Of a stretch of DNA of 64,000 nt, positions 44,831-61,402 are shown one piece after another. The stretch's first letter is position 1. Every line of letters begins with the position of its first letter. Both the position numbers and the translations under genes were made by a program. The notes under the pieces were generated by a model. That model was not told the DNA's origin, did no database searches, and worked only from the letters and a program-made list of their open reading frames with translations. The DNA is taken from positions 1 to 64,000 of IMG/VR virus record IMGVR_UViG_3300042372_000291. One strand, given 5' to 3'. This DNA is from a virus.

Positions 44831-44834
44831 TCTA

Positions 44835-45085: not shown

Positions 45086-45090
45086 ATAAG

Positions 45091-45122: not shown

Positions 45123-45130
45123 CGACAAAA

Positions 45131-45206
45131 TGTGGGGCAAATCACAATATCTCATCGGCGTGTCGCCTTGACTTTTTGGGGTTTCTCGTGTAGTATTCTA
45201 CCTATA
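45131..45206 (+). promoter_or_regulatory. Early promoter 1 with CRP-like half palindrome
   Basis: TGTGG-GGCAAA-TCACA (45131-45146), GGCGTGTCG (45167-45175), then TTGACT (45178-45183), 17 bases and TAGTAT (45201-45206). It drives transcription into a second promoter rather than a visible gene, so it may be the upstream of a tandem pair. Confidence 0.6.
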
Positions 45207-45230
45207 CAATTAAATAAATAGCAAAAAAGG

Positions 45231-45306
45231 TGTGACGCAATTCACATTCAAAATGTCCTAAATGTCCGAATTTAGATTTGATTTTGTCAGCCAAAAATGC
45301 TAGACT
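45231..45306 (+). promoter_or_regulatory. Early promoter 2 with CRP-like palindrome
   Basis: TGTGA-CGCAAT-TCACA (45231-45246) lies 31 bases upstream of TTGATT (45278-45283), a 17-base spacer (TTGTCAGCCAAAAATGC) and TAGACT (45301-45306). The palindrome centre is at about -74.5. Confidence 0.7.
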
Positions 45307-45340
45307 TACAGAGTAACAAACTAAAGAAAGGTGACAACTA

Positions 45341-45541
45341 ATGTCAGCAAACATCTACACAATAGAAAGCCTACTCGTAGGAAAAACTTATCGCTCAAAA
45401 ACCTTAACGGGTGAAATTGTTTCAGCAGAAAAACACCCTTCCCCTGTATGGTATGAGAACGCAGAGGCGTATCTCGTAGAGGTTAGAAATCAAAATGGCG
45501 GTTATGCTTATCGCACTCTCGCAGTATCAACAGAAAACTAA
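45341..45541 (+). CDS. 66-residue KOW/SH3-like protein
   Basis: A small beta protein. LLVGKTYRSKTLTGEIVSAE followed by YLVEVRNQNGGYAYRTLAV follows the pattern of two later genes (48725, 49497): G-x-Y-x-S-x-x-TG-x-I then a strand with V-x-V/R and a final basic strand. The start follows AAGAAAGGTG. It is probably a nucleic-acid or protein-binding SH3-like fold (inference). Confidence 0.62.
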   Translation: MSANIYTIESLLVGKTYRSKTLTGEIVSAEKHPSPVWYENAEAYLVEVRNQNGGYAYRTLAVSTEN

Positions 45542-45555
45542 GAAAGGAAAACTAA

Positions 45556-45699
45556 ATGACACTAGAGGAATTTAGACAGTATCAACAAGCCCAATACGCA
45601 AAACAGCGTGAGGCTAATAAAGAAAAAATCAACGCTATGTTTCATAGTAACTCTCGCCCATTAAATAATTCACACCTACTAAAGAAAGCAGAAAACTAA
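45556..45699 (+). CDS. 47-residue helical microprotein
   Basis: MTLEEFRQYQQAQYAKQREA, basic and helical (LLKKAEN at the end). AAGAAAGG precedes the ATG. No family recognised. Confidence 0.55.
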   Translation: MTLEEFRQYQQAQYAKQREANKEKINAMFHSNSRPLNNSHLLKKAEN

Positions 45700-45701
45700 A
45701 A

Positions 45702-45959
45702 ATGACTAACACTACTTACACAGACTTCCCATTCACCGCTAAGGGAATCAACTTTGTTTCAAGAGTTTATTCTAACTCTCCATTCCTTTCACGCATTCAG
45801 CAATTGCCAGCAGGCGTATTTGAAAGCATGAACATTGACGCAGTTTCAGATTTGCTAACTATTGAAAAAGAATACACCCTAGATGAGGTTCAAGCAGAAC
45901 TAGACCGAGTCAATGCAGGCGGAAGCCATGCGTTTATTTTGTTAGGAGAAAACAACTAA
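45702..45959 (+). CDS. 85-residue early hypothetical protein
   Basis: MTNTTYTDFPFTAKGINFVS with helical middle (FESMNIDAVSDLLTIEKEYT). Its stop overlaps the next ATG. No recognised motif. Preceded by AAGAAAG. Confidence 0.62.
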   Translation: MTNTTYTDFPFTAKGINFVSRVYSNSPFLSRIQQLPAGVFESMNIDAVSDLLTIEKEYTLDEVQAELDRVNAGGSHAFILLGENN

Positions 45960-46150
45960 TGATGACACGAAAAGACTATGTAAAAACTTCAAACATTCTA
46001 AAGGGTTTTTCTGATGAAATTCATCCAGCAGTTTTTGAGGATTTGGTTGAGGAGTTTTGTCAATACTTTGCAAGCGATAATGAAAACTTTGATAAAGTAA
46101 GATTTGAAAAGGCTTGCGGTGTTGATGAGTTAGGATTGATGCTAGCATGA
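45959..46150 (+). CDS. 63-residue early hypothetical protein
   Basis: An acidic helical protein (HPAVFEDLVEEFCQYFASDN). TTAGGAG lies upstream within the previous gene. Two ATGs in tandem (45959, 45962) are both usable. Function unknown. Confidence 0.6.
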   Translation: MMTRKDYVKTSNILKGFSDEIHPAVFEDLVEEFCQYFASDNENFDKVRFEKACGVDELGLMLA

Positions 46151-46245
46151 ATAGATTTATAACTTCCCTTGTTCAAATTCTTTTGTGGTTTCCAGTTATT
46201 CTTATTTTAGTATTTGCATACAGAGAACGCAAAAAGCAAAAGTAA
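46147..46245 (+). CDS. 32-residue membrane peptide
   Basis: MNRFITSLVQILLWFPVILI then LVFAYRERKKQK: one membrane-spanning segment and a basic cytoplasmic tail. The ATG overlaps the preceding stop. It could be a small inhibitor or pore peptide. Not recognised. Confidence 0.55.
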   Translation: MNRFITSLVQILLWFPVILILVFAYRERKKQK

Positions 46246-46253
46246 AAAAAGAT

Positions 46254-46277
46254 CCTAAGCATGATTTAAAACTGCTT
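46254..46277 (+). repeat. Intergenic hairpin element R1
   Basis: CCT followed by AAGCA, a 11-base A/T loop and TGCTT. It is a member of the repeated stem-loop family (see findings), and its A:T closing pair replaces the G:C of the others, a compensatory change. Confidence 0.62.
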
Positions 46278-46333
46278 GAAGCTTCAACTAAAATTTTCGA
46301 CCCCCGCAGTCGGGCGTGTCGCTTTACGTACGA

Positions 46334-46398
46334 TGTGATTTTTACCACAATTTTGAGCGGCGTGTCGTTTTGATTTTGTCGGTGATAAATGATAGGAT
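46334..46398 (+). promoter_or_regulatory. Early promoter 3 with CRP-like palindrome
   Basis: TGTGA-TTTTTA-CCACA (46334-46349), GGCGTGTCG (46359-46367), TTGATT (46370-46375), 17 bases and TAGGAT (46393-46398). Palindrome centre at about -63.5. Confidence 0.65.
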
Positions 46399-46427
46399 TA
46401 CAGAGTAATTAAATGAAAGGAAAACTA

Positions 46428-46592
46428 ATGAGTGAGTTTATTTTAATTAAGTCAGTATGCGGAGAAAAGGGTTCTTTCGTAGATGTCTATGATTTAGACC
46501 TTAACCCTCATGGAGTTGTTTGTTGTGATAATTGTCGCAGCATTGTGGCTACTCGTGAAAATTGGTTTGCCGAACACGGCGTGTCGGTTTGA
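46428..46592 (+). CDS. 54-residue zinc-finger-like protein
   Basis: MSEFILIKSVCGEKGSFVDV, then a centre with VVCCDNCRSIVATRENW (three Cys close together plus one near the start). AAAGGAAAAC precedes the ATG. Its last codons contain a GGCGTGTCG repeat and its stop codon overlaps the -35 of the next promoter. Confidence 0.58.
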   Translation: MSEFILIKSVCGEKGSFVDVYDLDLNPHGVVCCDNCRSIVATRENWFAEHGVSV

Positions 46593-46617
46593 TTTTGTCA
46601 GACCACTATGGTAAGTT
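46589..46617 (+). promoter_or_regulatory. Early promoter 4
   Basis: TTGATT (46589-46594), 17 bases, TAAGTT (46612-46617). The spacer begins TTGTCAG as in promoter 2. No CRP-like palindrome nearby. Confidence 0.55.
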
Positions 46618-46645
46618 TGCAGTATTGAAAGAAAGGAAATGAAAA

Positions 46646-46846
46646 ATGGATAGAATAGAATACGCAGTAGAAAGAATTCACAATTGTGATGAGTGTGGAG
46701 GAACGGGCTCTCAGTTTTGGGCTAATGGTGAAGACTATGACTTTGAGACTTGTGAGGAGTGTAATCCTCACGAACTAATCTTTGACTATGATGGAAATGT
46801 AGTTTGGGATAACGGAACGCTATTTACAACACAGGAGGCTAACTAA
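46646..46846 (+). CDS. Zinc-ribbon microprotein
   Basis: A 66-residue protein with HNCDECGGTGSQFW and FETCEECNPHEL, two CxxC pairs about 22 residues apart, i.e. a zinc ribbon. AGAAAGGAAATG precedes the ATG. It may bind nucleic acid or a host protein. Confidence 0.65.
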   Translation: MDRIEYAVERIHNCDECGGTGSQFWANGEDYDFETCEECNPHELIFDYDGNVVWDNGTLFTTQEAN

Positions 46847-46847
46847 A

Positions 46848-47141
46848 ATGGGAAGTAATTTTGCTAATGATTTAGTTACGCTTGGAGATTTGGGTATTGT
46901 CTTAGACATTGAAAGTCAGATAGGTATGCACCTTCAGGCTAATCATTATCCACCTGTTCCCAAGTCTATGGTCAAGCCTTGTGTTGAGGCTATTGATGCA
47001 GTAAATGATTTAGGACTATGGAATTTGGACATTGAGTTGCCTGAAGGTATCTCATGGCGTGGTTTGACTACCGCCCCCGCTTCGGCTATTATTGAAGCAC
47101 ACCACTTAGACGCTTGGATTATTGAACGAGAGGAATACTAA
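46848..47141 (+). CDS. 97-residue early hypothetical protein
   Basis: MGSNFANDLVTLGDLGIVLD; helical and mixed, with LPEGISWRGLTTAPASAIIE near the C-terminus. ACAGGAGG precedes the ATG inside the previous gene. No family recognised. Confidence 0.62.
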   Translation: MGSNFANDLVTLGDLGIVLDIESQIGMHLQANHYPPVPKSMVKPCVEAIDAVNDLGLWNLDIELPEGISWRGLTTAPASAIIEAHHLDAWIIEREEY

Positions 47142-47142
47142 A

Positions 47143-47352
47143 ATGGAATACACTTACTCACTTACTACCTCGTATGACGGGGAACTAGTAAACACCTTGC
47201 GAGTATCAGACATGATGGAAGCAGTAGACGCATGGAATAAATGCGTAGACTATGGAAATGCTAAAGACTATGCTACTTATAACCTATCAGACCCAACAGG
47301 TAAAATGTATACAAAAACTTTCTATGCCAATGGCGAAGTAGTTATAAAATAG
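47143..47352 (+). CDS. 69-residue early hypothetical protein
   Basis: Starts at the ATG after GAGAGGAATAC. MEYTYSLTTSYDGELVNTLR, then a helix (MMEAVDAWNKCVDYG) and a final strand. An alpha-beta fold with no known motif. Confidence 0.6.
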   Translation: MEYTYSLTTSYDGELVNTLRVSDMMEAVDAWNKCVDYGNAKDYATYNLSDPTGKMYTKTFYANGEVVIK

Positions 47353-47359
47353 GTATACA

Positions 47360-47572
47360 ATGAAAACTATGGATTATCGCATGGTTGATGTTCTCAACGC
47401 AGACCAATTAGAAGTAAATGATCTAATTGGTGTTGCGGATGAGATTGTAAAAGTTATTTCAATTGCCCCGCTTTCTGATGGGTTTTCACTTGTAATTGAA
47501 AATGAATTTGGTGAAAAAGATTTAATTGAAATTCTTGATGATGAACAATTTGAGTTATTTATTTTAGAATAA
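47360..47572 (+). CDS. 70-residue early hypothetical protein
   Basis: MKTMDYRMVDVLNADQLEVN, a beta-rich, acidic protein (FGEKDLIEILDDEQFEL). Preceded by TAGG. No recognised family. Confidence 0.6.
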   Translation: MKTMDYRMVDVLNADQLEVNDLIGVADEIVKVISIAPLSDGFSLVIENEFGEKDLIEILDDEQFELFILE

Positions 47573-47629
47573 AAGCTGCAAAAAATTTCGAGGGGCCCGA
47601 AATGTCCGAATTGCCCCTTTACGTCCGAT

Positions 47630-47658
47630 TTGATTTTTTCCCCTATTTCTGATAAGAT
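47630..47658 (+). promoter_or_regulatory. Early promoter 5 (leaderless)
   Basis: TTGATT (47630-47635), 17 bases, TAAGAT (47653-47658), then 6 bases to the ATG at 47665. Seen directly; leaderless use inferred. Confidence 0.6.
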
Positions 47659-47664
47659 TATTCT

Positions 47665-47811
47665 ATGTTTAAGAAATCTAGTGAACAATTACGTCATCTG
47701 CAGGAGCTACGCAGATCTAATGCCGCTACCCCTTTACGTAACAAGAAAAAATACACTAGACAAAGTAACAAAAAAATGTTAGACTTAGAAAGTAAAGAGA
47801 GGCCCCAATGA
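47665..47811 (+). CDS. 48-residue basic microprotein, leaderless
   Basis: MFKKSSEQLRHLQELRRSNA followed by a Lys/Arg/Gln-rich tail. The ATG is 6 bases after a TAAGAT -10. Its stop overlaps the next ATG (ATGA). It may bind nucleic acid (inference from charge). Confidence 0.58.
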   Translation: MFKKSSEQLRHLQELRRSNAATPLRNKKKYTRQSNKKMLDLESKERPQ

Positions 47812-48527
47812 AATTAAAACGCTCTAATGATAGGAAAGTTACTAATGCTGTATCACCAAATGGAAAAACACCAACAATCGCCAACACTTTTGGATTACCT
47901 AGCGGCAAGGCTTACTCATGTCCTGGTGAGACCTCTGTATGCGCTAAAGTATGCTACGCAGGAAAGCTTGAAAAAGTCTACAAAGGTGTAAGAGATACAC
48001 TATTACACAATTGGAATTTATTAAAAGACGCAGACCATGACACAATGGAAGCATTACTTACAGACATGATTAATGATTTCAAGAAAGACTGTGAAAAACG
48101 AGAAGCCCCAATGTTATTTAGAATTCACTGGGATGGCGATTTCTTTAGTGACGAGTACGCATTCGCATGGAAGCATGTTATCTTAAATAATCCTGATGTT
48201 CAATTCTGGGTTTATACACGAGTAGCCTCTGCTGCCAATATGTTAAAAGATATAGATAACCTATCTCTCTATTTCTCAACAGATAGTGAGAATAAAGAAG
48301 TTGCTATTAGTCTTAATAAAGATAAGGGAATTCGTTTAGCATACCTTGCCGATACCTTCGCAATTGGGCAGGCAGATCTAAAGGCAATGATAGGCAAGCC
48401 TGGCGCTAAGTGCCCTGAAAATAAAAAAGCAATTCCGTTAATTGACAAAGAGGGCTCTGCCTGTGTAAAATGTTCTCTGTGTGTCTATAATAAGGCGGAC
48501 ATAGTATTCTCTGCTAAAAAGCGGTAG
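47808..48527 (+). CDS. Gp88-family protein
   Basis: A 239-residue protein of the Gp88 family (PF17338-type, common in mycobacteriophages). The N-terminal half has FGLPSGKAYSCPGETSVC and KVCYAGKL, a Cys-rich segment that probably binds metal; RIHWDGDFFSDEYAFAW and FWVYTRVASAANML follow; the C-terminus has CPENKKAIPLID and SACVKCSLCVY. The biochemical role is not established. It is translationally coupled to the small basic gene upstream. Confidence 0.82.
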   Translation: MKLKRSNDRKVTNAVSPNGKTPTIANTFGLPSGKAYSCPGETSVCAKVCYAGKLEKVYKGVRDTLLHNWNLLKDADHDTMEALLTDMINDFKKDCEKREAPMLFRIHWDGDFFSDEYAFAWKHVILNNPDVQFWVYTRVASAANMLKDIDNLSLYFSTDSENKEVAISLNKDKGIRLAYLADTFAIGQADLKAMIGKPGAKCPENKKAIPLIDKEGSACVKCSLCVYNKADIVFSAKKR

Positions 48528-48550
48528 AGATAAACAGAAAGGCAAAACTA

Positions 48551-48616
48551 GTGGAACTAATAATCCTATTAGGCATAGCCCTGCTAGCAACACTAATAAT
48601 GGCTGGGGGGAAGTGA
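48551..48616 (+). CDS. 21-residue hydrophobic peptide
   Basis: GTG start after AGAAAGGC; the product is MELIILLGIALLATLIMAGG and a final Lys, almost entirely membrane-inserting. Very short, but with a proper ribosome binding site, so possibly a small toxin-like or holin-like peptide. Confidence 0.4.
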   Translation: MELIILLGIALLATLIMAGGK

Positions 48617-48690
48617 TTTACCTCACAAATCTCAAATAATGAGATTTTTAGGGAAAATAACTTGACAAAGCCAAAAATAAATGAAATAAT
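48612..48690 (+). promoter_or_regulatory. Early promoter 6 with CRP-like palindrome
   Basis: AGTGA-TTTACC-TCACA (48612-48627), TTGACA (48662-48667), 17 bases, AATAAT (48685-48690). Palindrome centre at about -77.5. Confidence 0.6.
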
Positions 48691-48724
48691 AAATACCATA
48701 ACCAACAACAAAGGAGAAATACAA

Positions 48725-48889
48725 ATGACAGTATCAGTATCAACTTACAAGGTCGGCGACACTTACACTTCACAGAAGTCAAAGGTCACAGGCGTTATCA
48801 AGGAAATCGTACCAACAGACAAGAACACAGTTCGTGTCAAACTTGATGTAGAAGGTCAGACACGCTGGACAACTTGGAAAGCAAACTAA
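48725..48889 (+). CDS. 54-residue KOW/SH3-like protein
   Basis: The ATG at 48725 follows AAAGGAG and is preferred to an upstream start at 48662. MTVSVSTYKVGDTYTSQKSK, then VTGVIKEIVPTDKNTVRVKL. It is a close paralogue of the gene at 49497 and more distantly of 45341. A small beta barrel is likely. Function unknown. Confidence 0.68.
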   Translation: MTVSVSTYKVGDTYTSQKSKVTGVIKEIVPTDKNTVRVKLDVEGQTRWTTWKAN

Positions 48890-48913
48890 TTCCTAACAAA
48901 AAACAGGAAAAGT

Positions 48914-48939
48914 CCTGAGCATGACTACTAAAACTGCTC
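48914..48939 (+). repeat. Intergenic hairpin element R2
   Basis: CCTGAGCATGACTACTAAAA then CTGCTC: 5-bp stem GAGCA/TGCTC. It lies 25 bases after a stop codon. Confidence 0.65.
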
Positions 48940-48942
48940 AAT

Positions 48943-48971
48943 TTGATTTCTTATCTAATAAATGTTAGACT
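48943..48971 (+). promoter_or_regulatory. Early promoter 7
   Basis: TTGATT (48943-48948), 17 bases, TAGACT (48966-48971), right after element R2. Confidence 0.6.
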
Positions 48972-49012
48972 AGATACCCCCAACAAAACACCAACAGAAA
49001 GGTAATACATAA

Positions 49013-49435
49013 ATGGCACGACAGAAAGCAATTAGCGTAAAAATCGCAACACCAAAGGTAATCAAGGCACTAGAAACTCGTCTAGCAGAACTAGAAAAGA
49101 ACTATGCCTCACAAGAAGCCAACGAAGCAAAGCATGAAAAGGCTATGGAGAAGTGGCGCAAGGAAGTAGCAAAGTTCGCTATGGCTAATTTTGCTAAGGC
49201 AGAAAACTTCCGCACAAACTATCGCTCATGGAACAAGACACTCAATGTTGATTTTGATTTAACAGTTAGTGAAACAGACTTTCCTAAAGAGCCTGAGAAG
49301 GACTACGAAGTTCTACACCGCCACTCATACAATGAGATGAAAGAGGAGTTATCTAACGCTATCCGTATTCTCAAGATGACAGATGAGGAAGTAGTTTCTA
49401 CTTCTACTTACAACGCTATCGCCCGATACTTGTAA
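49013..49435 (+). CDS. 140-residue coiled-coil protein
   Basis: A helical, charged protein (KALETRLAELEKNYASQEAN; MEKWRKEVAKFAMANFAKAE) with a possible coiled coil over residues 15-70 and a conserved-looking middle (NYRSWNKTLNVDFDL). AGAAAGG precedes the ATG. Not recognised. Confidence 0.65.
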   Translation: MARQKAISVKIATPKVIKALETRLAELEKNYASQEANEAKHEKAMEKWRKEVAKFAMANFAKAENFRTNYRSWNKTLNVDFDLTVSETDFPKEPEKDYEVLHRHSYNEMKEELSNAIRILKMTDEEVVSTSTYNAIARYL

Positions 49436-49444
49436 AATTACTTT

Positions 49445-49468
49445 CCTGAGCATGAAATAAAACTGCTC
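49445..49468 (+). repeat. Intergenic hairpin element R3
   Basis: CCTGAGCATGAAATAAAACT then GCTC: stem GAGCA/TGCTC, 13 bases after a stop codon. Confidence 0.65.
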
Positions 49469-49496
49469 AACACCCCAACTAAGAAAGGAAAATAAA

Positions 49497-49664
49497 ATGA
49501 CACTAGGCGGATACACTTACCAAATTGGTGATTTATTTACAACAAGCAAGACAGGCGTTACAGGACGAATTGAAAAGTTTGTTCCACAAAGTAAAAATGT
49601 AACTCGTGTAATGTTGCGCTTAGCAAACGGACAACAGCGTTTTGCTATGGTAAAAACCTACTAA
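49497..49664 (+). CDS. 55-residue KOW/SH3-like protein
   Basis: MTLGGYTYQIGDLFTTSKTG, then VTGRIEKFVPQSKNVTRVML. It is a paralogue of the gene at 48725; the ATG follows AGAAAGGAAAAT. The two are separated by one unrelated gene, so this is not a simple tandem duplication. Confidence 0.66.
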   Translation: MTLGGYTYQIGDLFTTSKTGVTGRIEKFVPQSKNVTRVMLRLANGQQRFAMVKTY

Positions 49665-49673
49665 TAAAATTAT

Positions 49674-49697
49674 CCTGAGCATGATAAAAAACTGCTC
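49674..49697 (+). repeat. Intergenic hairpin element R4
   Basis: CCTGAGCATGATAAAAAACT then GCTC: stem GAGCA/TGCTC, 12 bases after a stop. A-rich sequence and AAATTTTCGAG follow. Confidence 0.66.
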
Positions 49698-49715
49698 AAA
49701 AAATTTTCGAGAAAA

Positions 49716-49779
49716 TGTGACCAAGATCACACAGCAGCTTTACGGGGGATTTGTATTTTTTCCATATTTCTGCTAGACT
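49716..49779 (+). promoter_or_regulatory. Early promoter 8 with perfect CRP-like palindrome
   Basis: TGTGA-CCAAGA-TCACA (49716-49731), TTTACG, TTGTAT (49751-49756), 17 bases, TAGACT (49774-49779). Palindrome centre at about -62.5. Confidence 0.72.
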
Positions 49780-49809
49780 TGGTATATACCCAAAGAAAGG
49801 ATGCCCCTA

Positions 49810-50073
49810 ATGATATCAACCGCATTAGCAATACAAGACGCAACAAAAGAAGCAATTCACGACGAGGATGTTATGGACATGGCTCGCTCTATTTATCTAA
49901 GCAGACATGAAGTTTCTGAGGATGAGTTTATCAGAATGATGTACATTTATTCTGCTCATTTGTCTGCTATGACTGCTACTCTAGTTACTCATGCTTGCTT
50001 GACTGAAAGCCAACTAAATGATATGCTAGAAACAATAAAAGAAATGGAAGCCCTAGGAAAGGATATAGAATAA
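49810..50073 (+). CDS. 87-residue helical early protein
   Basis: The ATG at 49810 (MISTALAIQDATKEAI) is 8 bases after AGAAAGGA; an ATG at 49801 lies inside that ribosome binding site. All-helical, acidic (MARSIYLSRHEVSEDEF). The stop overlaps the next ATG. Not recognised. Confidence 0.6.
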   Translation: MISTALAIQDATKEAIHDEDVMDMARSIYLSRHEVSEDEFIRMMYIYSAHLSAMTATLVTHACLTESQLNDMLETIKEMEALGKDIE

Positions 50074-50483
50074 TGGAAGAAACAAATACACACTACATGA
50101 CACGAGAGTTTCTTGAAACTACCCTTGTACAAAACAAGGAGCGCATTCAGCAACTTGAAGAGCACATACAGACAGTAACTCAGCGCTCATATGGTGAGGC
50201 TGCAGAGCGTAACCGTATGCGTAATGAAATGCAAGAATGGACCTTAGAAAACTTAAGCGACGGTACCATTTCAGAAGGTTCTGCAGAAGAGATTGCAAGC
50301 ATTTGCGGTTTTGAGTTAACAAATGAATTTGAATTAGAGGTTACAGTTCAATATTCAGTTACAGTTAATGCTCGTGATGAAGAATCAGCAATTAATTTAA
50401 TTCATGATATTGATTTTGATTCAGTGTCATATCCTGAAGGTGTTACATATCTATCATCCACTGTTGACAGAATAGATTTGTGA
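50073..50483 (+). CDS. 136-residue early protein
   Basis: N-terminal half helical (KERIQQLEEHIQTVTQRSYG), then a small alpha-beta domain (FELEVTVQYSVTVNARDEES and INLIHDIDFDSVSYPEG). The C-terminal region resembles small ferredoxin-like domains. It overlaps the preceding gene by one base. Function unknown. Confidence 0.62.
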   Translation: MEETNTHYMTREFLETTLVQNKERIQQLEEHIQTVTQRSYGEAAERNRMRNEMQEWTLENLSDGTISEGSAEEIASICGFELTNEFELEVTVQYSVTVNARDEESAINLIHDIDFDSVSYPEGVTYLSSTVDRIDL

Positions 50484-50501
50484 TAGGGGGCTATCCAAGG
50501 A

Positions 50502-50525
50502 CCTGAGCACGTCTTTAAACTGCTT
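50502..50525 (+). repeat. Intergenic hairpin element R5
   Basis: CCTGAGCACGTCTTTAAACT then GCTTT: GAGCA pairs with TGCTT using one G-T pair; 22 bases after a stop. Confidence 0.55.
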
Positions 50526-50599
50526 TCGCCAGGCTGATTAGGGCGATCATAGAAATACTATAGAGCTAGTTCATTGGGGGACTAAAAGAACCCATACTA

Positions 50600-50624
50600 C
50601 CTGAGCATGTAGGAAAAAGGCTCA
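50600..50624 (+). repeat. Intergenic hairpin element R6
   Basis: CCTGAGCATGTAGGAAAAAG then GCTCA: TGAGC/GCTCA stem, followed by AAAAAATTTTCGAC. Confidence 0.62.
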
Positions 50625-50641
50625 AAAAATTTTCGACCCGC

Positions 50642-50729
50642 TGTGATTTTGATCACATTTACGATGGTGTCCGATTTTTCCCAATTTCTAATAACCCTAT
50701 TTGACTTTGTCAGTCCTGTCTGCTAAGAT
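50642..50729 (+). promoter_or_regulatory. Early promoter 9 with perfect CRP-like palindrome
   Basis: TGTGA-TTTTGA-TCACA (50642-50657), TTTACG, TTGACT (50701-50706), 17 bases, TAAGAT (50724-50729). Palindrome centre at about -86.5. Confidence 0.72.
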
Positions 50730-50758
50730 TGATTCATATCAAGAAAGGATATTAATAA

Positions 50759-51775
50759 ATGGCACATGAACTAGAAACCCAAAATGGCGTTGCCTCATTC
50801 GCATCATTCCGTGAACCTGCTTGGCATGGTTTAGGAACTGTATTCACAGAAGAAAAAACAACAACAGAAATGTTGTCTGCTGCTAATCTATCTAATTGGA
50901 ATGTTCGTCTTGAAGACGTAAATATTCCATCTCACTTATCATCAGATAAGAATTACCAATATGTTGTTCGTACTAATCCTACTGACAATTCCCAGACAGA
51001 CATTTTAGGTGTTGTCGGTGAGCGTTACCATGTTTTGCAGAATGAGGATTTATTCTCATTTGGTGATAACATTCTTGACGGTGGAGGTCGTTGGGAAACT
51101 GCTGGCTCTATTCGTGGAGGTCGTGTAGTATTTGGTTCTCTTGCTCTTGAACGTGAGACAGTACTAGACCCTAGCGGTGTTGCAGATAAGGTAAAAACTT
51201 ATTTGCTCATTAACACATCACATGATGGCTCAATCGCTATTCAAGCAAGCATTACACCTGTTCGTGTAGTGTGCGCTAACACTCTCAATCTTGCTTTAGG
51301 CTCTAAGCGTGGCAAGAACGCTATCAAGCAATCTTTCAAAATCCGTCATACTCAGACGGCTAATGGTAAGGTTCAAATTGCTCGTGAGACTTTAGGTCTT
51401 GCTAATAAATACATGGACGCTTTTGATGTTATGGCTAAGGCTATGATTGAAAAAGAAATCACCGCTGGTCAATTCAATGACATTATTCTTGCTGCTTACC
51501 CTAAGCCTGAAAAAGATGCTAAGGGCGCAATCAAGAAGTGGGAAAACAAGGTTGATGTTATCAATGACATTTACACAGGCGAATTCAATGGTATGATTGC
51601 TAATACCGCTTGGGGTGCTTTCAATGCTCTAACTGAACGCCTTGATTGGCACCGCTCTGCTCGTGGTGGGAATAACGAAAGTATTCTTGCTGCTGCTTCT
51701 GGTTTTGATGCTACAATTACAGCAGAAAAAAATCGTTTGCTAAAAGTTGTAAAAGATGTTTTAGCGATAGCGTAA
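50759..51775 (+). CDS. DUF932 phage/plasmid-like protein
   Basis: A 338-residue member of the DUF932 (plasmid/phage-like) family. Landmarks are FREPAWHGLGTVFTEEKT near the start, VVGERYHVLQNEDLFSFGDN, RVVFGSLALERET and QASITPVRVVCANTLNLALG, then SFKIRHTQTANGKVQIARET. The family is widespread on phages and plasmids; its function is not settled. It has one of the strongest early promoters of the window and a standard AGAAAGGA site. Confidence 0.85.
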   Translation: MAHELETQNGVASFASFREPAWHGLGTVFTEEKTTTEMLSAANLSNWNVRLEDVNIPSHLSSDKNYQYVVRTNPTDNSQTDILGVVGERYHVLQNEDLFSFGDNILDGGGRWETAGSIRGGRVVFGSLALERETVLDPSGVADKVKTYLLINTSHDGSIAIQASITPVRVVCANTLNLALGSKRGKNAIKQSFKIRHTQTANGKVQIARETLGLANKYMDAFDVMAKAMIEKEITAGQFNDIILAAYPKPEKDAKGAIKKWENKVDVINDIYTGEFNGMIANTAWGAFNALTERLDWHRSARGGNNESILAAASGFDATITAEKNRLLKVVKDVLAIA

Positions 51776-51788
51776 ATAAATACGCAAC

Positions 51789-51814
51789 TCCTGAGTAAGA
51801 GTATAAACTGCTCA
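51789..51814 (+). repeat. Intergenic hairpin element R7
   Basis: CCTGAGTAAGAGTATAAACT then GCTCA: shorter TGAG/CTCA stem, 13 bases after a stop. Confidence 0.5.
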
Positions 51815-51880
51815 CTTTTTTATTTAGATCAAAAGCTGCTAAAAAAATTCGAAACCATGATATTTTTTTATATTGTTTAA

Positions 51881-51920
51881 TTACGAACGACTTGCTTTTT
51901 TCCCCAGTTTTTGGTATTCT
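51881..51920 (+). promoter_or_regulatory. Early promoter 10
   Basis: TTACGAAC (51881-51888), TTGCTT (51892-51897), 17 bases, TATTCT (51915-51920) with TGG before it. No CRP-like palindrome. Confidence 0.58.
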
Positions 51921-51946
51921 TTATTTACCACAGAAAGGAAAAATAA

Positions 51947-52180
51947 ATGTCTAGTTTTCTAGAAAATGAAAATCAAATGGTTATTGATGCTATCTATCAT
52001 GAGATTGGAGAAATGCTAGTTGAAGACTGGGTTAACTCCAATTTAGATGAAGGGCAGATGTTTGCAGATTTTAGATTTGCAGAGATGTCTGATGATAATT
52101 ACATTAAGGGTAGATTTAATCTATTCTATGATTTAAAACCAGGGGACCAATACTATCTAGAATGGGATGAGGAAGCATAA
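51947..52180 (+). CDS. 77-residue early hypothetical protein
   Basis: MSSFLENENQMVIDAIYHEI, an acidic alpha-beta protein ending PGDQYYLEWDEEA. ACAGAAAGG precedes the ATG, and the stop overlaps the next ATG (TAATG). Not recognised. Confidence 0.6.
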   Translation: MSSFLENENQMVIDAIYHEIGEMLVEDWVNSNLDEGQMFADFRFAEMSDDNYIKGRFNLFYDLKPGDQYYLEWDEEA

Positions 52181-52350
52181 TGTTGGGTTATGACTTAGAG
52201 GATTTAAACATAATGATGGATTCACTAGCAGAGGTTATTCAGATTGAAGAATCTTCTCAAACCCCGTCAATTTCTGATAGGAATCTAGGAGGACTTAAAA
52301 CAAGCTTGTTTTTCTTACAAGGCTTGTGGGCAGAAGGGTATTTTGACTGA
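52180..52350 (+). CDS. 56-residue early microprotein
   Basis: MLGYDLEDLNIMMDSLAEVI, acidic helices, then SQTPSISDRNLGGLKTSLFF. Translationally coupled to the previous gene. Function unknown. Confidence 0.52.
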   Translation: MLGYDLEDLNIMMDSLAEVIQIEESSQTPSISDRNLGGLKTSLFFLQGLWAEGYFD

Positions 52351-52356
52351 GGGGCA

Positions 52357-52423
52357 TGTGTCCTAAATCACACCCAAAAGGCTTTACGAACGCTTGACAA
52401 AAACCCCCATTTTTTGAGATAAT
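52357..52423 (+). promoter_or_regulatory. Early promoter 11 with CRP-like palindrome
   Basis: TGTGT-CCTAAA-TCACA (52357-52372), TTACGAAC (52384-52391), TTGACA (52394-52399), 18 bases, GATAAT (52418-52423). Palindrome centre at about -65.5. Confidence 0.65.
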
Positions 52424-52452
52424 TGCATTACGACCAACAGAAAGGACCCTAA

Positions 52453-53205
52453 ATGCCAAATTATTGTTTTAATACCTTGACTATTCAAGGACCGAAAGAA
52501 CAAGTAGACTCTATTAAGGCTAAGTTAAATGAGCCTTTTCAAAGACATCATGACCAATGGAATACAGAAACTCAGCAAATGGAAATAAAAGAGTATTTCT
52601 ATAATAATCCTGTGTTTGCATTTTGGAATATTTATAATCCAGTACAAGACGGTATCTCTAACGAGGTCTACCTAGGTCAGCCTGACCATACTATTCCATT
52701 TGCAGAACAAATGAAATTTAAGACTAATGATTGGTATTCATGGAATGTCCGTAATTGGGGAACCAAATGGGATGTTGCTGTAGGAGATGAAGATAACTAT
52801 CCTGATACAGAGTTATTAGAACATATGGATAGAGGAGAAGACCAGTGGGTTATTTATAAGTTCAATACCGCTTGGTCTCCACCTGCTCCTGCTATGGAGA
52901 AGTTGTCTGCTCTAGTTCCTAACTGTGTAGTTACTCTTTCCTTTGAGGAAGAAACAGGTTGGGGTGGCGAGTATGAGTTTGTCAATGGAGAAATGACTGC
53001 AGAATCTAATTATGATTCTAAGTGCCGTGACTGTGATGCAGAAGACCAAATGGAATACTGCGAAAACGATTGTGGAGAAATCTGCAGTGCTTGTCATTGG
53101 TTAGGTGAGGCAGACCTAGAGTGTGTTGCAGAATGTGATGAGCACAAGATATACTTGGACGAGGAACATGTACCAGATTACAGAAAGGATGAAATCAATG
53201 TCTAA
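52453..53205 (+). CDS. Api92-like protein with Cys-rich tail
   Basis: A 250-residue protein. The first ~170 residues match the Api92/YubB-like ferredoxin-fold family: MPNYCFNTLTIQGPKEQVDS, WYSWNVRNWGTKWD, YKFNTAWSPPAPAMEKLS. The C-terminal ~60 residues are Cys-rich (CRDCDAEDQMEYCENDCGEI, then CSACHWL), probably zinc-binding. The combination of an Api92-like domain with a zinc tail is unusual. The family occurs on phages and mobile elements; function unknown. AGAAAGGACC precedes it. Confidence 0.78.
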   Translation: MPNYCFNTLTIQGPKEQVDSIKAKLNEPFQRHHDQWNTETQQMEIKEYFYNNPVFAFWNIYNPVQDGISNEVYLGQPDHTIPFAEQMKFKTNDWYSWNVRNWGTKWDVAVGDEDNYPDTELLEHMDRGEDQWVIYKFNTAWSPPAPAMEKLSALVPNCVVTLSFEEETGWGGEYEFVNGEMTAESNYDSKCRDCDAEDQMEYCENDCGEICSACHWLGEADLECVAECDEHKIYLDEEHVPDYRKDEINV

Positions 53206-53401
53206 TTACTTATTAGAATATATGAAGATACATCTAATTAGTTTAGAACAAGATTTAGAGAATATAGCCCAAGAAATGGAATTGCTTGACCCTGAATCTA
53301 AAGCCTGTAAAGAATTAGACTATGAATATAATCATATGTCAGGACAGATTCTTTCTACCCGCCATTTTATACAGGTAGGAGAAGAACATGCAGGCAATTA
53401 A
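53198..53401 (+). CDS. 67-residue helical early protein
   Basis: The ATG at 53198 (MSNYLLEYMKIHLISL) follows AGAAAGGATG; a longer in-frame reading inside the previous gene is not supported. Helical, acidic. It overlaps the previous stop by 8 bases. Not recognised. Confidence 0.58.
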   Translation: MSNYLLEYMKIHLISLEQDLENIAQEMELLDPESKACKELDYEYNHMSGQILSTRHFIQVGEEHAGN

Positions 53402-53663
53402 TGAGTTAGAACCATATCTGCAGAAGGCTGTTGACGCTGGCATATCTGGATTGGATATCATGCACGGTCATCTCAAAACATTAATGCTGGAGGCTGAGCG
53501 GGAACTAGAAGAGGCAAGCCGCATTGAGATTGAGAACGACTATTCAGACGCAATAGAATCCATGGAGCGTAAATACTGGGAAGGCCAATGTGACGCTCTT
53601 TCACACCTATATGCATTAACATATCAACTATCATTTGCCATAGCAGAAAGGGACGGGCAATGA
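53388..53663 (+). CDS. 91-residue helical early protein
   Basis: MQAINELEPYLQKAVDAGIS, then HLKTLMLEAERELEEASRIE, all helix. AGGAGAAG precedes the ATG in the previous gene. Overlaps both neighbours. Not recognised. Confidence 0.6.
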   Translation: MQAINELEPYLQKAVDAGISGLDIMHGHLKTLMLEAERELEEASRIEIENDYSDAIESMERKYWEGQCDALSHLYALTYQLSFAIAERDGQ

Positions 53664-53995
53664 GTTTAGATCTACAAGAACAAACACGTATGCTAGATGT
53701 ATATCGTGATATTGAAGATATCATTGACAGAATTAGTAAACTTCCTATTGGAATGCCGCTAGTCTGGGTATATGTCTGGGATGTTGCTCGTCAACTATGG
53801 CATGACATCATGGAAGGTCAGGAAGAAGAATTCTGCACAGCCATGGATGAAGAAGAGATGTGGGAACTGTTTTGGACCCAGGCTGATAAGAATGGGTTTA
53901 CTTTAGAATACGGAACAGAGGACCTATATGAGTCTATCCGTGATTGGATGTTTGACCAGGGTATTATTGAAGAAGTAGAAGAGGAAGAGGAATGA
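53660..53995 (+). CDS. 111-residue acidic helical protein
   Basis: MSLDLQEQTRMLDVYRDIED, with an aromatic centre (MPLVWVYVWDVARQLWHD) and a very acidic end (IIEEVEEEEE). Overlaps both neighbours by 4 bases. Acidic small proteins of this sort are often DNA mimics or host-protein inhibitors (inference). Confidence 0.6.
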   Translation: MSLDLQEQTRMLDVYRDIEDIIDRISKLPIGMPLVWVYVWDVARQLWHDIMEGQEEEFCTAMDEEEMWELFWTQADKNGFTLEYGTEDLYESIRDWMFDQGIIEEVEEEEE

Positions 53996-54063
53996 TGTAC
54001 GAGCAGTTGACATTAAACTTAGATTTTGATATCATTGAGCAAACTATAGAAAGGGAAGAGTAA
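53992..54063 (+). CDS. 23-residue microprotein
   Basis: MMYEQLTLNLDFDIIEQTIE then REE. It links the preceding stop (ATGA) and the next start (TAATG). It may be a translational coupler more than a functional protein. Confidence 0.4.
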   Translation: MMYEQLTLNLDFDIIEQTIEREE

Positions 54064-54410
54064 TGGGAGCTCGTTGTACATTTGTATTTAAACAGTCAGA
54101 GGAGCAAGCTGTAGCACTATACAGTCATTGGGGTGAAGACTCTATGTATGAGGACCTAGCAGCAGCATTGCGACATGCAGCACCACGGGTAGGAGACCAA
54201 TCCTACTACGTAAGAATGGCAGTTAGTTATTTACTGCAGCATAGTATTTTGGATGAGACAGGTTATGGCCTATATGCATGTAATCCTAATGACCTAGGTT
54301 TCATGGACCATCCAATTGTAATTAATCTATTAGATAGTACAATTCAAGATGACACTGGAATTCACACTATTGATGAATTTGTTAATTATCATGCAGGCCT
54401 AAAGGTTTAG
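54063..54410 (+). CDS. 115-residue early hypothetical protein
   Basis: MGARCTFVFKQSEEQAVALY, then a helical region (LAAALRHAAPRVGDQSYYVR) and HPIVINLLDSTIQDDTGI. The opening resembles small proteins found in mycobacteriophages. AGAAAGGGAAG precedes the ATG. Last gene of the six-gene unit from 52453. Not identified. Confidence 0.62.
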   Translation: MGARCTFVFKQSEEQAVALYSHWGEDSMYEDLAAALRHAAPRVGDQSYYVRMAVSYLLQHSILDETGYGLYACNPNDLGFMDHPIVINLLDSTIQDDTGIHTIDEFVNYHAGLKV

Positions 54411-54416
54411 TTGAGG

Positions 54417-54506
54417 GTCCGTGTGGTGAGCGGACTGTATACGTGGGACGAGGGGTCCTCCCACGACAATAAGGGTGGAGCGCAGGCTGTGGTGGGCTTG
54501 CGCTCC
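54417..54506 (+). ncRNA. Three-hairpin GC-rich structured RNA candidate
   Basis: Three perfect stems in a row: GTCCG/CGGAC (54417-54435), CGTGGGA/TCCCACG (54442-54465) and GGAGCGCA/TGCGCTCC (54477-54506). The block is strikingly GC-rich inside AT-rich DNA and starts right after a stop codon. No T-run follows, so a plain terminator is a poor fit. It may be a small RNA or an mRNA 3' structure. Confidence 0.5.
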
Positions 54507-54543
54507 CCCAACATCTTTGATACAATAAGAGAGGGTATAAATA

Positions 54544-54783
54544 ATGACATACAGGATTAGTAAGGGGATTACCCCCGAAGAGCGAGTAGCCAAAAGACTA
54601 AAAACAATTGTAGAAGACTTAGATTTAGACCTAGAACAAACTGGAGTAATGCTTGCTAGAGTATTGCCACATTTGACTTATACAAGATTAGTCACTATGA
54701 TAGAAGCGGCACAAGAGGAAAAAGAGTTTATTCTAAACCCTAAGAAGCGACATGAAAGTTGGATACAAAATGGACTATGGTAA
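54544..54783 (+). CDS. 79-residue early hypothetical protein
   Basis: MTYRISKGITPEERVAKRLK, helical and basic at the start, then VMLARVLPHLTYTRLVTMIE. AGAGAGGG precedes the ATG and TGATACAAT lies about 25 bases upstream. Its end overlaps the next gene. Not recognised. Confidence 0.6.
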   Translation: MTYRISKGITPEERVAKRLKTIVEDLDLDLEQTGVMLARVLPHLTYTRLVTMIEAAQEEKEFILNPKKRHESWIQNGLW

Positions 54784-55078
54784 GGTAGCAGACATACTAG
54801 CAGTAATCTATAATGATGGTGTAGATTTAGAAGCAGTAGAATACCTGCCTTCTGAGTATTGGTTAGAGTGTGAGGACGGGATAACCCTTGCTACATTTAT
54901 TTCATCTGGTTGGGCAGAGCCTACCGAAATGGGTAAATCTCAGTTAGAGTATGCCTGGCGTGTTCTTTGTGCTGCCAGAAGTCTTGACCCTGAAATAATG
55001 TATGAAACTCCACTTGAGTTTTTTGAGGCACAGATAGTAGAAGCTGATGTTATCCCAATTGAGGAGGGTAGAAAGTAA
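54752..55078 (+). CDS. 108-residue early protein, paralogue of next gene
   Basis: MKVGYKMDYGKVADILAVIY; an alternative start is the ATG at 54770. Residues 45-108 (LATFISSGWAEPTEMGKSQL to TPLEFFEAQIVEAD) align with the following 94-residue gene. Helical; function unknown. Confidence 0.58.
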   Translation: MKVGYKMDYGKVADILAVIYNDGVDLEAVEYLPSEYWLECEDGITLATFISSGWAEPTEMGKSQLEYAWRVLCAARSLDPEIMYETPLEFFEAQIVEADVIPIEEGRK

Positions 55079-55362
55079 TGCTTGACTATAAAACAAAATG
55101 CAATATTCTATCAGATCTATGGGAGAACTATAGAGATGAAGAATCTTTTATAGATTTTATTGAATATAACGATCTTGGATTACCTATGGCATATATGCTA
55201 CGGGAAGGTTTAGTCAACGAGGTAACAGAAACAGGACAGTTATATATCAATGAGACATTTAATTTATTTATTGCTGCCCTTCAAATTAAAGAAGAAGAAA
55301 TCAAAGAAGGCACAACATTAGATATCTTATTAGATATGGCTGAGAAAAAGCAAAACCCATAA
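55078..55362 (+). CDS. 94-residue early protein, paralogue of previous gene
   Basis: MLDYKTKCNILSDLWENYRD; the LREGLVNEVTETGQLYINET and TTLDILLDMAE segments parallel the preceding gene. Tandem duplication is likely. AGGAGGG precedes the ATG. It is the last gene before the non-coding origin candidate. Confidence 0.6.
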   Translation: MLDYKTKCNILSDLWENYRDEESFIDFIEYNDLGLPMAYMLREGLVNEVTETGQLYINETFNLFIAALQIKEEEIKEGTTLDILLDMAEKKQNP

Positions 55363-56061
55363 GATTTTTCGACAAACCTTTTAGGAATTTATTAGATTAC
55401 GAACATCGAATATTTTTCCCATTTTTTTAGATTACGAACAAACAATATTTTTCCCCAAACCCTATATCCAAACATATCTATATCCTTATACCAGGTATAC
55501 TTCTTATAGTAGTAATTGGTATTCTTTATATACCCCGCCATTTTTGAAAAAATAAGATTACGAACGAGCTTTTTTAAGCCCAGCATTTTGACGGGCATCT
55601 TACCACACGACGGGCGTTTTGTCAAGGGGCGCAAAAAACGGGACGGTATAAAAAAGATTACAACCAATACCCTATATACAAACACTATATCCTGGATAAA
55701 ATAGATTACGAAAGCTATAAATTTTTTCCTGGATTTTCCAAATATTATCCATATATTTTATAACATTTTGTTATTGTTTTCCACAATTTTGAGCAATTTT
55801 TATAACATTTCTATATCAAATATTGAGACATGTTTTGCTCATATTGTGGGTAAATGGATACTTGACAAACAATTTGATATGTGGTATATGGGGAAATTCC
55901 CTGTTTTAAAATTTGGAAAGGGGGTTTTGCCGCTGCAGCATTACGAACGCCCCTCTTAAAAGTGGTCCATTCCCCACTATCCTCCACTTTCCTCCATTCA
56001 TAGAATATAAAATTATCCACAGTAAGATTTAAATGTGGATAAACCTGTGGATAACTATGAA
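55363..56061. other. Candidate replication origin: AT-rich, repeats and DnaA boxes
   Basis: A 700-base stretch without a credible gene. Five GATTACGAAC-like motifs (55395, 55430, 55556, 55656 variant, 55704) and a CATTACGAAC (55939) recur over its length, each often followed by a TTTTTCCC run. Its right end has three perfect DnaA boxes: TTATCCACA (56013-56021), TGTGGATAA (56034-56042) and TGTGGATAA (56046-56054). The arrangement (iterons, AT-rich segment, DnaA boxes) fits a replication origin. It may alternatively hold decayed promoter copies. Confidence 0.62.
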
Positions 56062-56694
56062 TTATTGCCTATATTTTTGTCTATTTATTTCCCAATTGTC
56101 AATATCTCTTGGTAGATCAAAGTCTTCTGTCCAATCATTTATCTTTACTACATCAAAGCTATGCTTGTTAGTTTTTAACTGTTCGTATAAACACCAACCA
56201 CCAGGTAGATTAAAATAATCAGAAGACTCTATAATAGAGCGTATTGTATTATCTAGTATAGGTATAGACTTTCCATTAAACCCAATTCCCCATATTTCTT
56301 TCCAAGGCTTTCCAGTTATCTCTGAAGCCCTATCCCTAAGATAAAATGATAGATCAGATTTATCATTCATTATTGTTTCAACTGCTTCATCTGTAAAATA
56401 TACATCTGCAAAAACGAGAATATTTCTCTCTGATGACCATATATCCCTGCTAGACCAAAACTTGGCTACATCTTTCCATGCTTTATCAACAGGGGGGACA
56501 TAGGTTTGAGCCCCATTTACGGTATCTTCTCCATCATTACACACTATAACAATATTATCTGTATACTTAGAAAACTGCCTATAAGTTCTTTCAATTAATA
56601 CTTCTTCTTCAATTAATAAACGATGCTTGGGGGTTCCCCTATAATTTCCCCACCTGGTTCCATTTCCTGCAGCTAATATTAAAACCTTTATCAT
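56062..56694 (-). CDS. Sugar nucleotidyltransferase
   Basis: A 210-residue nucleotidyltransferase of the GlmU/MobA-like superfamily: the NTP loop VLILAAGNGTRWGNYRG with TPKHRLLI, then VIVCNDGEDTV and an NILVFADVYFTDEA segment carrying the metal-binding Asp. It should activate a sugar phosphate for the glycosyltransferases at 58800-64000. TGGTATTCT ends 6 bases before the ATG (leaderless), back to back with the promoter of the plus-strand gene at 56729. Confidence 0.8.
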   Translation of the reverse strand: MIKVLILAAGNGTRWGNYRGTPKHRLLIEEEVLIERTYRQFSKYTDNIVIVCNDGEDTVNGAQTYVPPVDKAWKDVAKFWSSRDIWSSERNILVFADVYFTDEAVETIMNDKSDLSFYLRDRASEITGKPWKEIWGIGFNGKSIPILDNTIRSIIESSDYFNLPGGWCLYEQLKTNKHSFDVVKINDWTEDFDLPRDIDNWEINRQKYRQ

Positions 56695-60033: not shown

Positions 60034-60043
60034 GGAATTGGTT

Positions 60044-60748
60044 ATGTCAAAAAAAATTATTTTTAAAGCAATGGATGAAGAAGGTTTTAATATTCAGGAT
60101 AGACCATATCCAGCATCCAAAGCTATTCCAGAATGGTGGAAAAATCATAGCATATATGATAATGGCTCAAACAAGCTTGAATTGATTAACAGAACTCCAA
60201 ACTTTTCTTTTAAAAAATGTACTCCAATGCTAGATGCATTAACGTCTGGCTATATAATACCCTTACACGCAGATGTATTAGTTTCAAGACAAGAAGACAG
60301 AGTTTTTCTATCTTGGAAAACAGAAAAAGATATTTTTCAACTACATGGTCAATCATCACATAATGTAGAAGCACCACCTGGATATAGTAATTTAGTTTTT
60401 AAATATTTAAATACTTGGATTCCAATTACTCCAAAGGGTTATTCTGTATTAATTACAAGTCCATTTGGATATAGAAATTTGCCAATGATGGCTATACCAG
60501 CTATAATTGACTCAGATAGATCTTTATTAGACATGGCAAACCCTATGTGGATTAAAGATGATTTTGAAGGCATTATAGAGAAAGGAACTCCATTGATACA
60601 AGTTACTCCATTTAAAAGAGATGATTGGGAAGCCTCTTTTGAGCACTTTAAAAAAGATGAATGGAAAACTCATACTGAAAAGAACTTTTCAGCAAACATA
60701 GTAGGACACTATATTAAGAATATTTGGTCAAAAAAAAACTATAAGTAG
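60044..60748 (+). CDS. DUF6065-like protein, copy C
   Basis: A 234-residue protein starting at MSKKIIF after AGGGA. It is close to copy B: IPEWWKNHSIYDNG, FSFKKCTPMLDALTSGYIIP, TPKGYSVLITSPFGYRNLP, PAIIDSDRSLLDM and IEKGTPLIQVTPFKRDDWEAS. Copies A and C share the same block at lower similarity. It is co-transcribed with ferredoxin. Function unknown; a dUTPase-like barrel is possible. Confidence 0.7.
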   Translation: MSKKIIFKAMDEEGFNIQDRPYPASKAIPEWWKNHSIYDNGSNKLELINRTPNFSFKKCTPMLDALTSGYIIPLHADVLVSRQEDRVFLSWKTEKDIFQLHGQSSHNVEAPPGYSNLVFKYLNTWIPITPKGYSVLITSPFGYRNLPMMAIPAIIDSDRSLLDMANPMWIKDDFEGIIEKGTPLIQVTPFKRDDWEASFEHFKKDEWKTHTEKNFSANIVGHYIKNIWSKKNYK

Positions 60749-60927: not shown

Positions 60928-61004
60928 GCAGCAATAGCTCAGTTGGTTAGAGCCCCCGACTCATAATCGGGTCGTCGTAGGTTCAAGTCCTACTTGCTGC
61001 ACCA
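60928..61004 (+). tRNA. tRNA-Met (CAT anticodon), CCA encoded
   Basis: Full cloverleaf: acceptor GCAGCAA/TTGCTGC, D-arm AGCTCAGTTGGTTAGAGC, anticodon arm CCCGA-CTCATAA-TCGGG (CAT), T-arm GTAGG-TTCAAGT-CCTAC and ACCA at the end. A tRNA-Ile (CAU, lysidine) is an alternative that the sequence alone does not settle. Confidence 0.9.
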
Positions 61005-61005
61005 A

Positions 61006-61076
61006 GGGATTGAAGCATTAAAGTGATGCTCAGGACTTTTAATCCTGAGAAGAAGGAGCATTACCTTCCAGTCCTA
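61006..61076 (+). other. Non-canonical cloverleaf, Lys(TTT)-like or reversed hairpin element
   Basis: GGGATTG pairs with CAGTCCT (two G-T pairs), AGCAT/ATGCT, CAGGA/TCCTG around CTTTTAA (TTT in anticodon position) and GAAGG/CCTTC, with 7-base loops throughout. The D and T loops lack the conserved GG and TTCRA bases, so it is not a standard tRNA. Its reverse complement contains the CCTGAGCAT core of the R hairpin family. Confidence 0.4.
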
Positions 61077-61077
61077 C

Positions 61078-61151
61078 GCATCTGTAACTCAGTTGGTTAG
61101 AGTACCTGCCTTATATGCAGAGAGCCGTAGGTTCAAGTCCTACCAGATGTA
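61078..61151 (+). tRNA. tRNA-Ile (TAT anticodon)
   Basis: GCATCTG/CAGATGT acceptor, D-arm AACTCAGTTGGTTAGAGT, CCTGC-CTTATAT-GCAGA anticodon arm (TAT; one mismatch at the outer pair) and T-arm GTAGG-TTCAAGT-CCTAC. Reads the AUA codon, frequent in this AT-rich genome. Confidence 0.85.
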
Positions 61152-61155
61152 CGAT

Positions 61156-61227
61156 ACCTCTGTAACTCAGCGGAAGAGTAACGGACTTCTAATCCGTAAG
61201 TCGTAGGTTCGATCCCTACCAGGGGTG
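61156..61227 (+). tRNA. tRNA-Arg (TCT anticodon)
   Basis: ACCTCTG/CAGGGGT acceptor, D-arm AACTCAGCGGAAGAGT, anticodon arm ACGGA-CTTCTAA-TCCGT (TCT), T-arm GTAGG-TTCGATC-CCTAC. Reads AGA/AGG. Confidence 0.88.
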
Positions 61228-61248
61228 CTACAATTAATATTCATTTTA

Positions 61249-61322
61249 GGTCTGTTAGCTCAGTTGGTTAGAGCGCTACCCTGTCACGGTAGAGGTCGTG
61301 GGTTCAAGTCCCATACAGATCG
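61249..61322 (+). tRNA. tRNA-Asp (GTC anticodon)
   Basis: GGTCTGT/ACAGATC acceptor, AGCTCAGTTGGTTAGAGC D-arm, CTACC-CTGTCAC-GGTAG anticodon arm (GTC) and GTGGG-TTCAAGT-CCCAT T-arm. Confidence 0.9.
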
Positions 61323-61327
61323 CATAA

Positions 61328-61402
61328 GGCACTATCGTCTATCGGTTAGGACATCGCCCTTTCACGGCGGAAAGACGGGTTCGATTCCCGTTAGTGCTGC
61401 CA
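61328..61402 (+). tRNA. tRNA-Glu (TTC anticodon), CCA encoded
   Basis: GGCACTA/TAGTGCT acceptor, CGTCTATCGGTTAGGAC D-arm, TCGCC-CTTTCAC-GGCGG anticodon arm (TTC), ACGGG-TTCGATT-CCCGT T-arm, and a final GCCA. Confidence 0.92.

Follow-up and report, generated by a model that had tools for sequence, protein, structure and literature searches.

The question raised by this locus is whether a gene-free interval in the genome of an uncultured phage serves as a replication origin and which initiator would act on it. A preliminary description had proposed such an origin from DnaA boxes and iterons. The window considered here comprises the first 64 kb of a linear virus record of 107,731 bases, and the interval (hereafter, the gap) spans positions 55363–56061. 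Our analyses lead us to favor, with appreciable reservation, the view that the gap is a replication origin that depends on host DnaA, is assisted by a promoter, and lies where a long terminal repeat has its inner edge. Such reliance on a host initiator would be unexpected for phages with a largely self-encoded replication machinery.

The source phage and its gene-free gap

The source phage is an uncultured actinophage distantly related to the Stanwilliamsviridae. Its portal is ~45% identical to those of Streptomyces phages of this family, and its DUF932 protein is ~53% identical to Stanwilliamsviridae counterparts. A WhiB gene at 72438–72611 of the record points to actinobacteria as hosts. The record encodes DNA polymerase III alpha, a DnaB-type helicase, primase, SSB, a RecA/UvsX recombinase, and terminase. 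A profile search of the record returned no match to PF00308 or PF08299, and a phage-encoded DnaA was therefore rejected.

Other genes of the record include a tryptophan halogenase (L009 5502–7058; Pfam E 3e-99) and four phrog_7084 paralogues (window 60038–60748, L009 15329–16072, L010 12608–13342, and L010 15254–16015), two of which sit among replication genes and are possibly mobile. A cluster of five tRNA genes was identified at 60928–61402 of the window (ARAGORN), with a sixth at 61006–61076 (Rfam) and three more at L009 13954–14176 (Rfam).

The gap comprises 699 bp without genes, as had been described, between a plus-strand ORF that ends at 55362 and a minus-strand gene at 56062–56694 (phrog_33187, E 3e-22). 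These neighbors converge, and the DnaA boxes in the gap are thus the promoter of neither. The region had been called AT-rich; its GC content is indeed lower than that of the whole record (0.329 vs. 0.355), but the difference is mild. Three perfect DnaA boxes (TTATCCACA) are present at 56013 (plus), 56034 (minus), and 56046 (minus), as previously noted, and one-mismatch boxes lie at 55745, 55777, and 55845. The record contains eight perfect boxes where a first-order Markov model predicts 1.55, and three within 50 bp occurred in none of 300 simulated genomes. Likewise, four copies of GATTACGAA within 320 bp occurred in none of 300 simulations. Of the six ATTACGAA repeats first reported, all in the same orientation, five are good copies and the sixth, at 55655, is degenerate. 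Their description as iterons holds insofar as they are oriented and conserved; they are spaced irregularly, not in tandem as iterons of plasmids are, and one copy lies at the predicted genome-end cut. The features of the region, including a promoter, 10-bp repeats, an inverted DnaA pair at 44466 (plus) and 44482 (minus), and a predicted terminal-repeat boundary that were not part of the preliminary description, are compiled in Table 1. GC skew was rejected as an origin marker; it is uninformative here because genes on each side are co-oriented, which confounds skew with gene orientation.

Table 1. Features of the gap and its surroundings, in window coordinates.
Feature	Position	Strand	Remarks
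Oriented ATTACGA repeats	55395–55713	+	Exact GATTACGAA at 55395, 55430, 55556, and 55704; degenerate GATTACAAC at 55655
Repeat copy CATTACGAA / CATTACGAAC at module edge	55939–55948	+	ATTACG invariant in alignment; predicted inner edge of direct terminal repeat
Promoter-like TTGACA-N17-TATATG, directed into DnaA module	55862–55890	+	Spacer of 17 in 32/33 relatives
Three 10-bp repeats, (C)CTCCACT-like	55976–56002	+	Contain TCCAC, the DnaA box core in the opposite reading direction
AT-rich candidate unwinding stretch with CAGTAAGAT	56003–56033		Contains plus-strand DnaA box 56013–56021; three triplets in window copy
Tandem DnaA boxes TGTGGATAA-ACC-TGTGGATAA	56034–56054	-	Perfect boxes, recurring in relatives
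Predicted direct terminal repeat, ~12.4 kb, collapsed in assembly	43569–55940		Predicted from end motifs of relatives, not from virion ends
Second DnaA pair, inverted, upstream of gene array	44466–44490		44466 (+) / 44482 (-); among CRP-like sites and promoters

The early gene array has putative control sites of its own. Eleven of the 13 CRP/GlxR-like sites in the record (TGTGA-N6-TCACA, at most one mismatch) fall within the array (window 44288–52372), and six CGTGTCG words lie near these sites. Among relatives, 111 such sites were found in 187 kb of array, as compared to 8 in 81 kb beyond the module. The pattern suggests that host factors control the early promoters of the phage. The inverted DnaA boxes at 44466–44490, upstream of the array, form a hairpin that resembles a terminator, and similar boxes occur at several array promoters in relatives. 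Since the pair lies among CRP-like sites and promoters, it is probably regulatory, as are the boxes at array promoters.

Conservation of the module among relatives

Loci of relatives were collected through the DUF932 gene. Tandem TGTGGATAA boxes, 2–3 bp apart, were detected 4.2–6.8 kb downstream of this gene in 45 loci. The absence of the boxes in relatives had been put forward as grounds for abandoning the origin proposal, which survived this check. Alignment of 34 distinct loci reveals a conserved module of ~110 bp between unalignable flanks. Its elements follow in the order ATTACGAAC, TAAAAGTGCTCCAT, three 10-bp CTCCACT repeats, an AT-rich stretch, CAGTAA(G/C)AT, and the tandem DnaA boxes. 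A separate pattern scan of viral contigs yielded at least 120 matches, and the module is present in at least 102 dereplicated viral copies, although these share descent and their counts are not independent events. Among the matches listed, DUF932 lies 3.9–6.4 kb from the module on the same strand in all 43 module contigs with DUF932 in the locus. The repeats are consistently oriented: within 920 bp in 33 relatives, 162 ATTACGA-type repeats share the orientation of those in the window and none has the other.

A 7-kb query identified no DNA-level relatives of the gap among isolate phages, and the module returned only short box matches there. The literature searched contained no report of DnaA boxes for this group of phages. 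Bacterial origins with the exact CAGTAASAT-box pattern were also considered and rejected: the same scan of bacterial and archaeal genomes (257 Gb) yielded seven matches where roughly on the order of ten are expected by chance.

In bacterial origins, the basal unwinding system (BUS) combines tandem DnaA boxes with DnaA-trios, triplets with a middle A. Following PMC8287927, we required tandem boxes at most 3 bp apart and, on the correct strand and no farther than 16 bp from a box, a minimum of three NAN triplets. The boxes at 56034–56054 are spaced accordingly, and three triplets adjoin them. Among the matches listed, 102 dereplicated copies have an A at every third base in the trio register at a frequency of 0.83, as compared to 0.49 and 0.30; shuffles gave a mean of 0.54 and a maximum of 0.61, and only positions outside the search pattern were used. 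Runs of middle-A triplets in these copies are mostly 5–8 long, whereas those in shuffled arms are 2–3 long. The window copy has an additional box inside the AT-rich stretch and a run of only three triplets, the minimum and common by chance. The trio signal thus characterizes the group and not the window copy. A -10 element could account for part of the A register.

A TTGACA-N17-TATAAT-like promoter directed into the module was identified in 32 of 33 loci, whereas only 39 of 888 windows drawn at random from these loci contain one. Counting ORFs of 100 amino acids or more, the first one downstream reads rightward in 14 loci and leftward in 13 and is absent from 6; the promoter thus serves no conserved gene.

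The terminal-repeat edge and competing readings

The Streptomyces phages Jay2Jay, Bmoc, and NootNoot have deposited terminal repeats of 11,438, 11,063, and 10,787 bp, respectively. In each of these, the repeat stops 1 nt before ATTACACAC, the counterpart of ATTACGAAC in the module, and the distance from ATTACACAC to the boxes is equivalent to that in the window. The DnaA boxes lie ~50–115 bp outside the repeat edge and the TTACGA repeats, in a single orientation, 212–725 bp inside it, with a pair 35–36 bp apart in Jay2Jay and NootNoot. The boxes and repeats of these three Boydwoodruffvirinae isolates thus lie at the edge of the terminal repeat; for the window, this position is predicted. A far-edge motif, TGTATG|ATACAT, occurs at the deposited end of the three phages, is matched by ATGTATGATACAT at 43562 of the window, and is found as TGTATGATACA in loci of 16 relatives. 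These matches to deposited ends suggest that the window carries a repeat from 43569 to ~55940 that was collapsed in assembly. Duplication of DUF932 was dismissed as proof of a resolved terminal repeat: the gene is single-copy in 11 of 13 long contigs and missing from the other two, which suggests that their repeats are collapsed or incomplete.

Faust and Comrade have terminal repeats of only ~0.75 kb (first 40 bases tested), and their boxes and TTACGA repeats stay together 6–7 kb from this short repeat. The DnaA gap is located at 122.0 kb in Jay2Jay and at 123.6 kb in Faust. The element therefore does not move with the physical genome end, suggesting that the unit is not simply a packaging site.

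The position at a terminal-repeat boundary opens rival readings, including an injection-stop signal and a packaging site, and it is on this point that the proposed origin, otherwise supported by boxes, trio register, promoter, replisome genes, and unconserved flanks, is to be qualified. In a T5-type injection stop, the terminal repeat with the early genes would enter the cell, entry would pause at the DnaA-box-rich boundary, and the rest would follow after early proteins. We know of no two-step DNA entry in this phage group. The gap lies where such a signal would be expected, a point against an origin: boxes and repeats occupy the inner edge of a long repeat with small early genes in Jay2Jay, Bmoc, NootNoot, and, as predicted from relatives, the window. 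Comparable boxes are present in T5-like phages, where they occupy non-coding DNA of the terminal repeats, and the proposed T5 signal is described as comprising repeats, palindromes, and DnaA boxes (2026 paper, PMC13250531). However, no T5 A1 or A2 homolog was detected among the array proteins scanned, and an injection stop needs neither a trio register nor an inward promoter; we regard this reading as improbable, if worth keeping in mind. A packaging or end-maturation site, where the small terminase, for which L010 2900–3439 is the candidate, would bind the ATTACGA repeats and the module would mark the terminal-repeat cut with the DnaA boxes secondary, agrees with the repeat edges of the three isolates and the TTACGA repeats just inside them. 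It is an unlikely explanation given that the DnaA boxes and the promoter are the best-conserved letters, and in its packaging-only form it is weakened by Faust and Comrade.

A regulatory or decoy role, in which the boxes would sequester host DnaA or keep the promoter from being transcribed, would fit their occurrence alongside CRP-like sites at array promoters. The boxes there probably have a regulatory function, and their presence also counts against an origin. A record with only eight perfect boxes, an unconserved downstream gene, a gap between converging genes, and the fact that a decoy needs no fixed geometry make this reading doubtful. Least probable by far is a structured non-coding RNA transcribed from the conserved promoter with the module as its body. 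Such an RNA would explain why the promoter is kept without a conserved downstream gene, but none of the 10 pairs in the consensus fold shows a compensatory change, the module region has no Rfam match, no terminator was found, and the invariant letters are those of the DnaA boxes; this reading was rejected.

We favor a replication origin because tandem boxes recur in 45 loci and the module in its many copies while the flanks cannot be aligned, because of the A excess in the trio register, the inward promoter without a conserved gene, and a phage replisome without DnaA, and because boxes and TTACGA repeats stay paired away from the ends of Faust and Comrade. In addition, the same tandem boxes immediately precede a gene that reads as DnaA in the two small-genome Actinomycetes examined. 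The minimal trio run of the window, the possible -10 element within the A register, and the boxes without trios in Faust weigh against an origin. At such an origin, host DnaA would bind the tandem boxes at 56034 and 56046, with the box at 56013 assisting in the window, and the DnaA oligomer would spread over the adjoining AT-rich stretch in trio register and open the DNA. Transcription from the promoter may aid opening or provide priming RNA. Following opening, the phage DnaB-type helicase would be loaded, and primase, SSB, and DNA polymerase III would take over. The ATTACGA and CTCCACT repeats may be further protein sites, for a phage initiator or terminase or as weak DnaA sites.

Should the element prove to be an origin, host DnaA would be a requirement for a large group of environmental actinophages, and the role of DnaA boxes in T5-like terminal repeats could be tested in laboratory phages. 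The module also provides a sequence signature by which the putative origin and the edges of terminal repeats can be located in metagenomic contigs, which lose their ends during assembly.

Comparison with known systems

The module resembles the BUS of bacterial oriC (PMC8287927; PMC6669920) in its tandem consensus boxes separated by no more than 3 bp, short spacer, AT-richness, and run of middle-A triplets on the expected strand. It differs in residing on a phage genome without dnaA, in its inward promoter and 10-bp repeats, in a first triplet that often begins with T, and in the minimal run of the window.

The corresponding gap of Stanwilliamsviridae (Jay2Jay, Bmoc, NootNoot, Faust, and Comrade) likewise adjoins the early array at the orthologous position and contains DnaA boxes and single-orientation TTACGA repeats, with a pair 35–38 bp apart in most. 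Neither the CTCCACT repeats nor the CAGTAA element is present in the versions from Streptomyces phages, in which inspection by eye showed no trio run; Faust has none either.

P1 oriR and pSC101 are iteron origins with DnaA boxes, and they share these, an AT-rich element, and directional repeats with the gap. Unlike theirs, the repeats of the gap are irregular rather than in tandem at helical spacing, and no adjacent Rep gene was recognized among its neighbors. T4 oriF and the primary origin of T7 combine a promoter with an unwinding element and lack DnaA boxes; transcription into an AT-rich element is the feature that they share with the gap.

Tandem DnaA boxes also occur ~340 bp from the left genome end of Squash-type Microbacterium phages (L256 340–370). 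Among T5-like phages (Demerecviridae), compared through the relatives Sw2, 8sent1748, and AmPh_EK80, CAGTARRAT lies beside DnaA-type boxes in the non-coding part of the terminal repeats, with trio runs of 4–6 in three phages examined (motif, boxes, and register at L251 ~1500–1545, L257 ~1001–1041, and L250 ~9120). Shared features are non-coding DNA close to where a ~10-kb terminal repeat has its inner edge, the boxes with CAGTARRAT, and separate oriented repeats. In contrast, the T5-like boxes lie inside the repeat rather than outside, the repeat family is GTGCRAATCCGAC, and phages and hosts are unrelated. We see a small chance that unrelated phages with long repeats (the freshwater actinophage group and T5-like phages) have arrived at one general solution, a host-DnaA unwinding module with an inward promoter at the inner terminal-repeat edge, that would serve both as an origin and as a boundary for genome entry or for terminal-repeat duplication in packaging.
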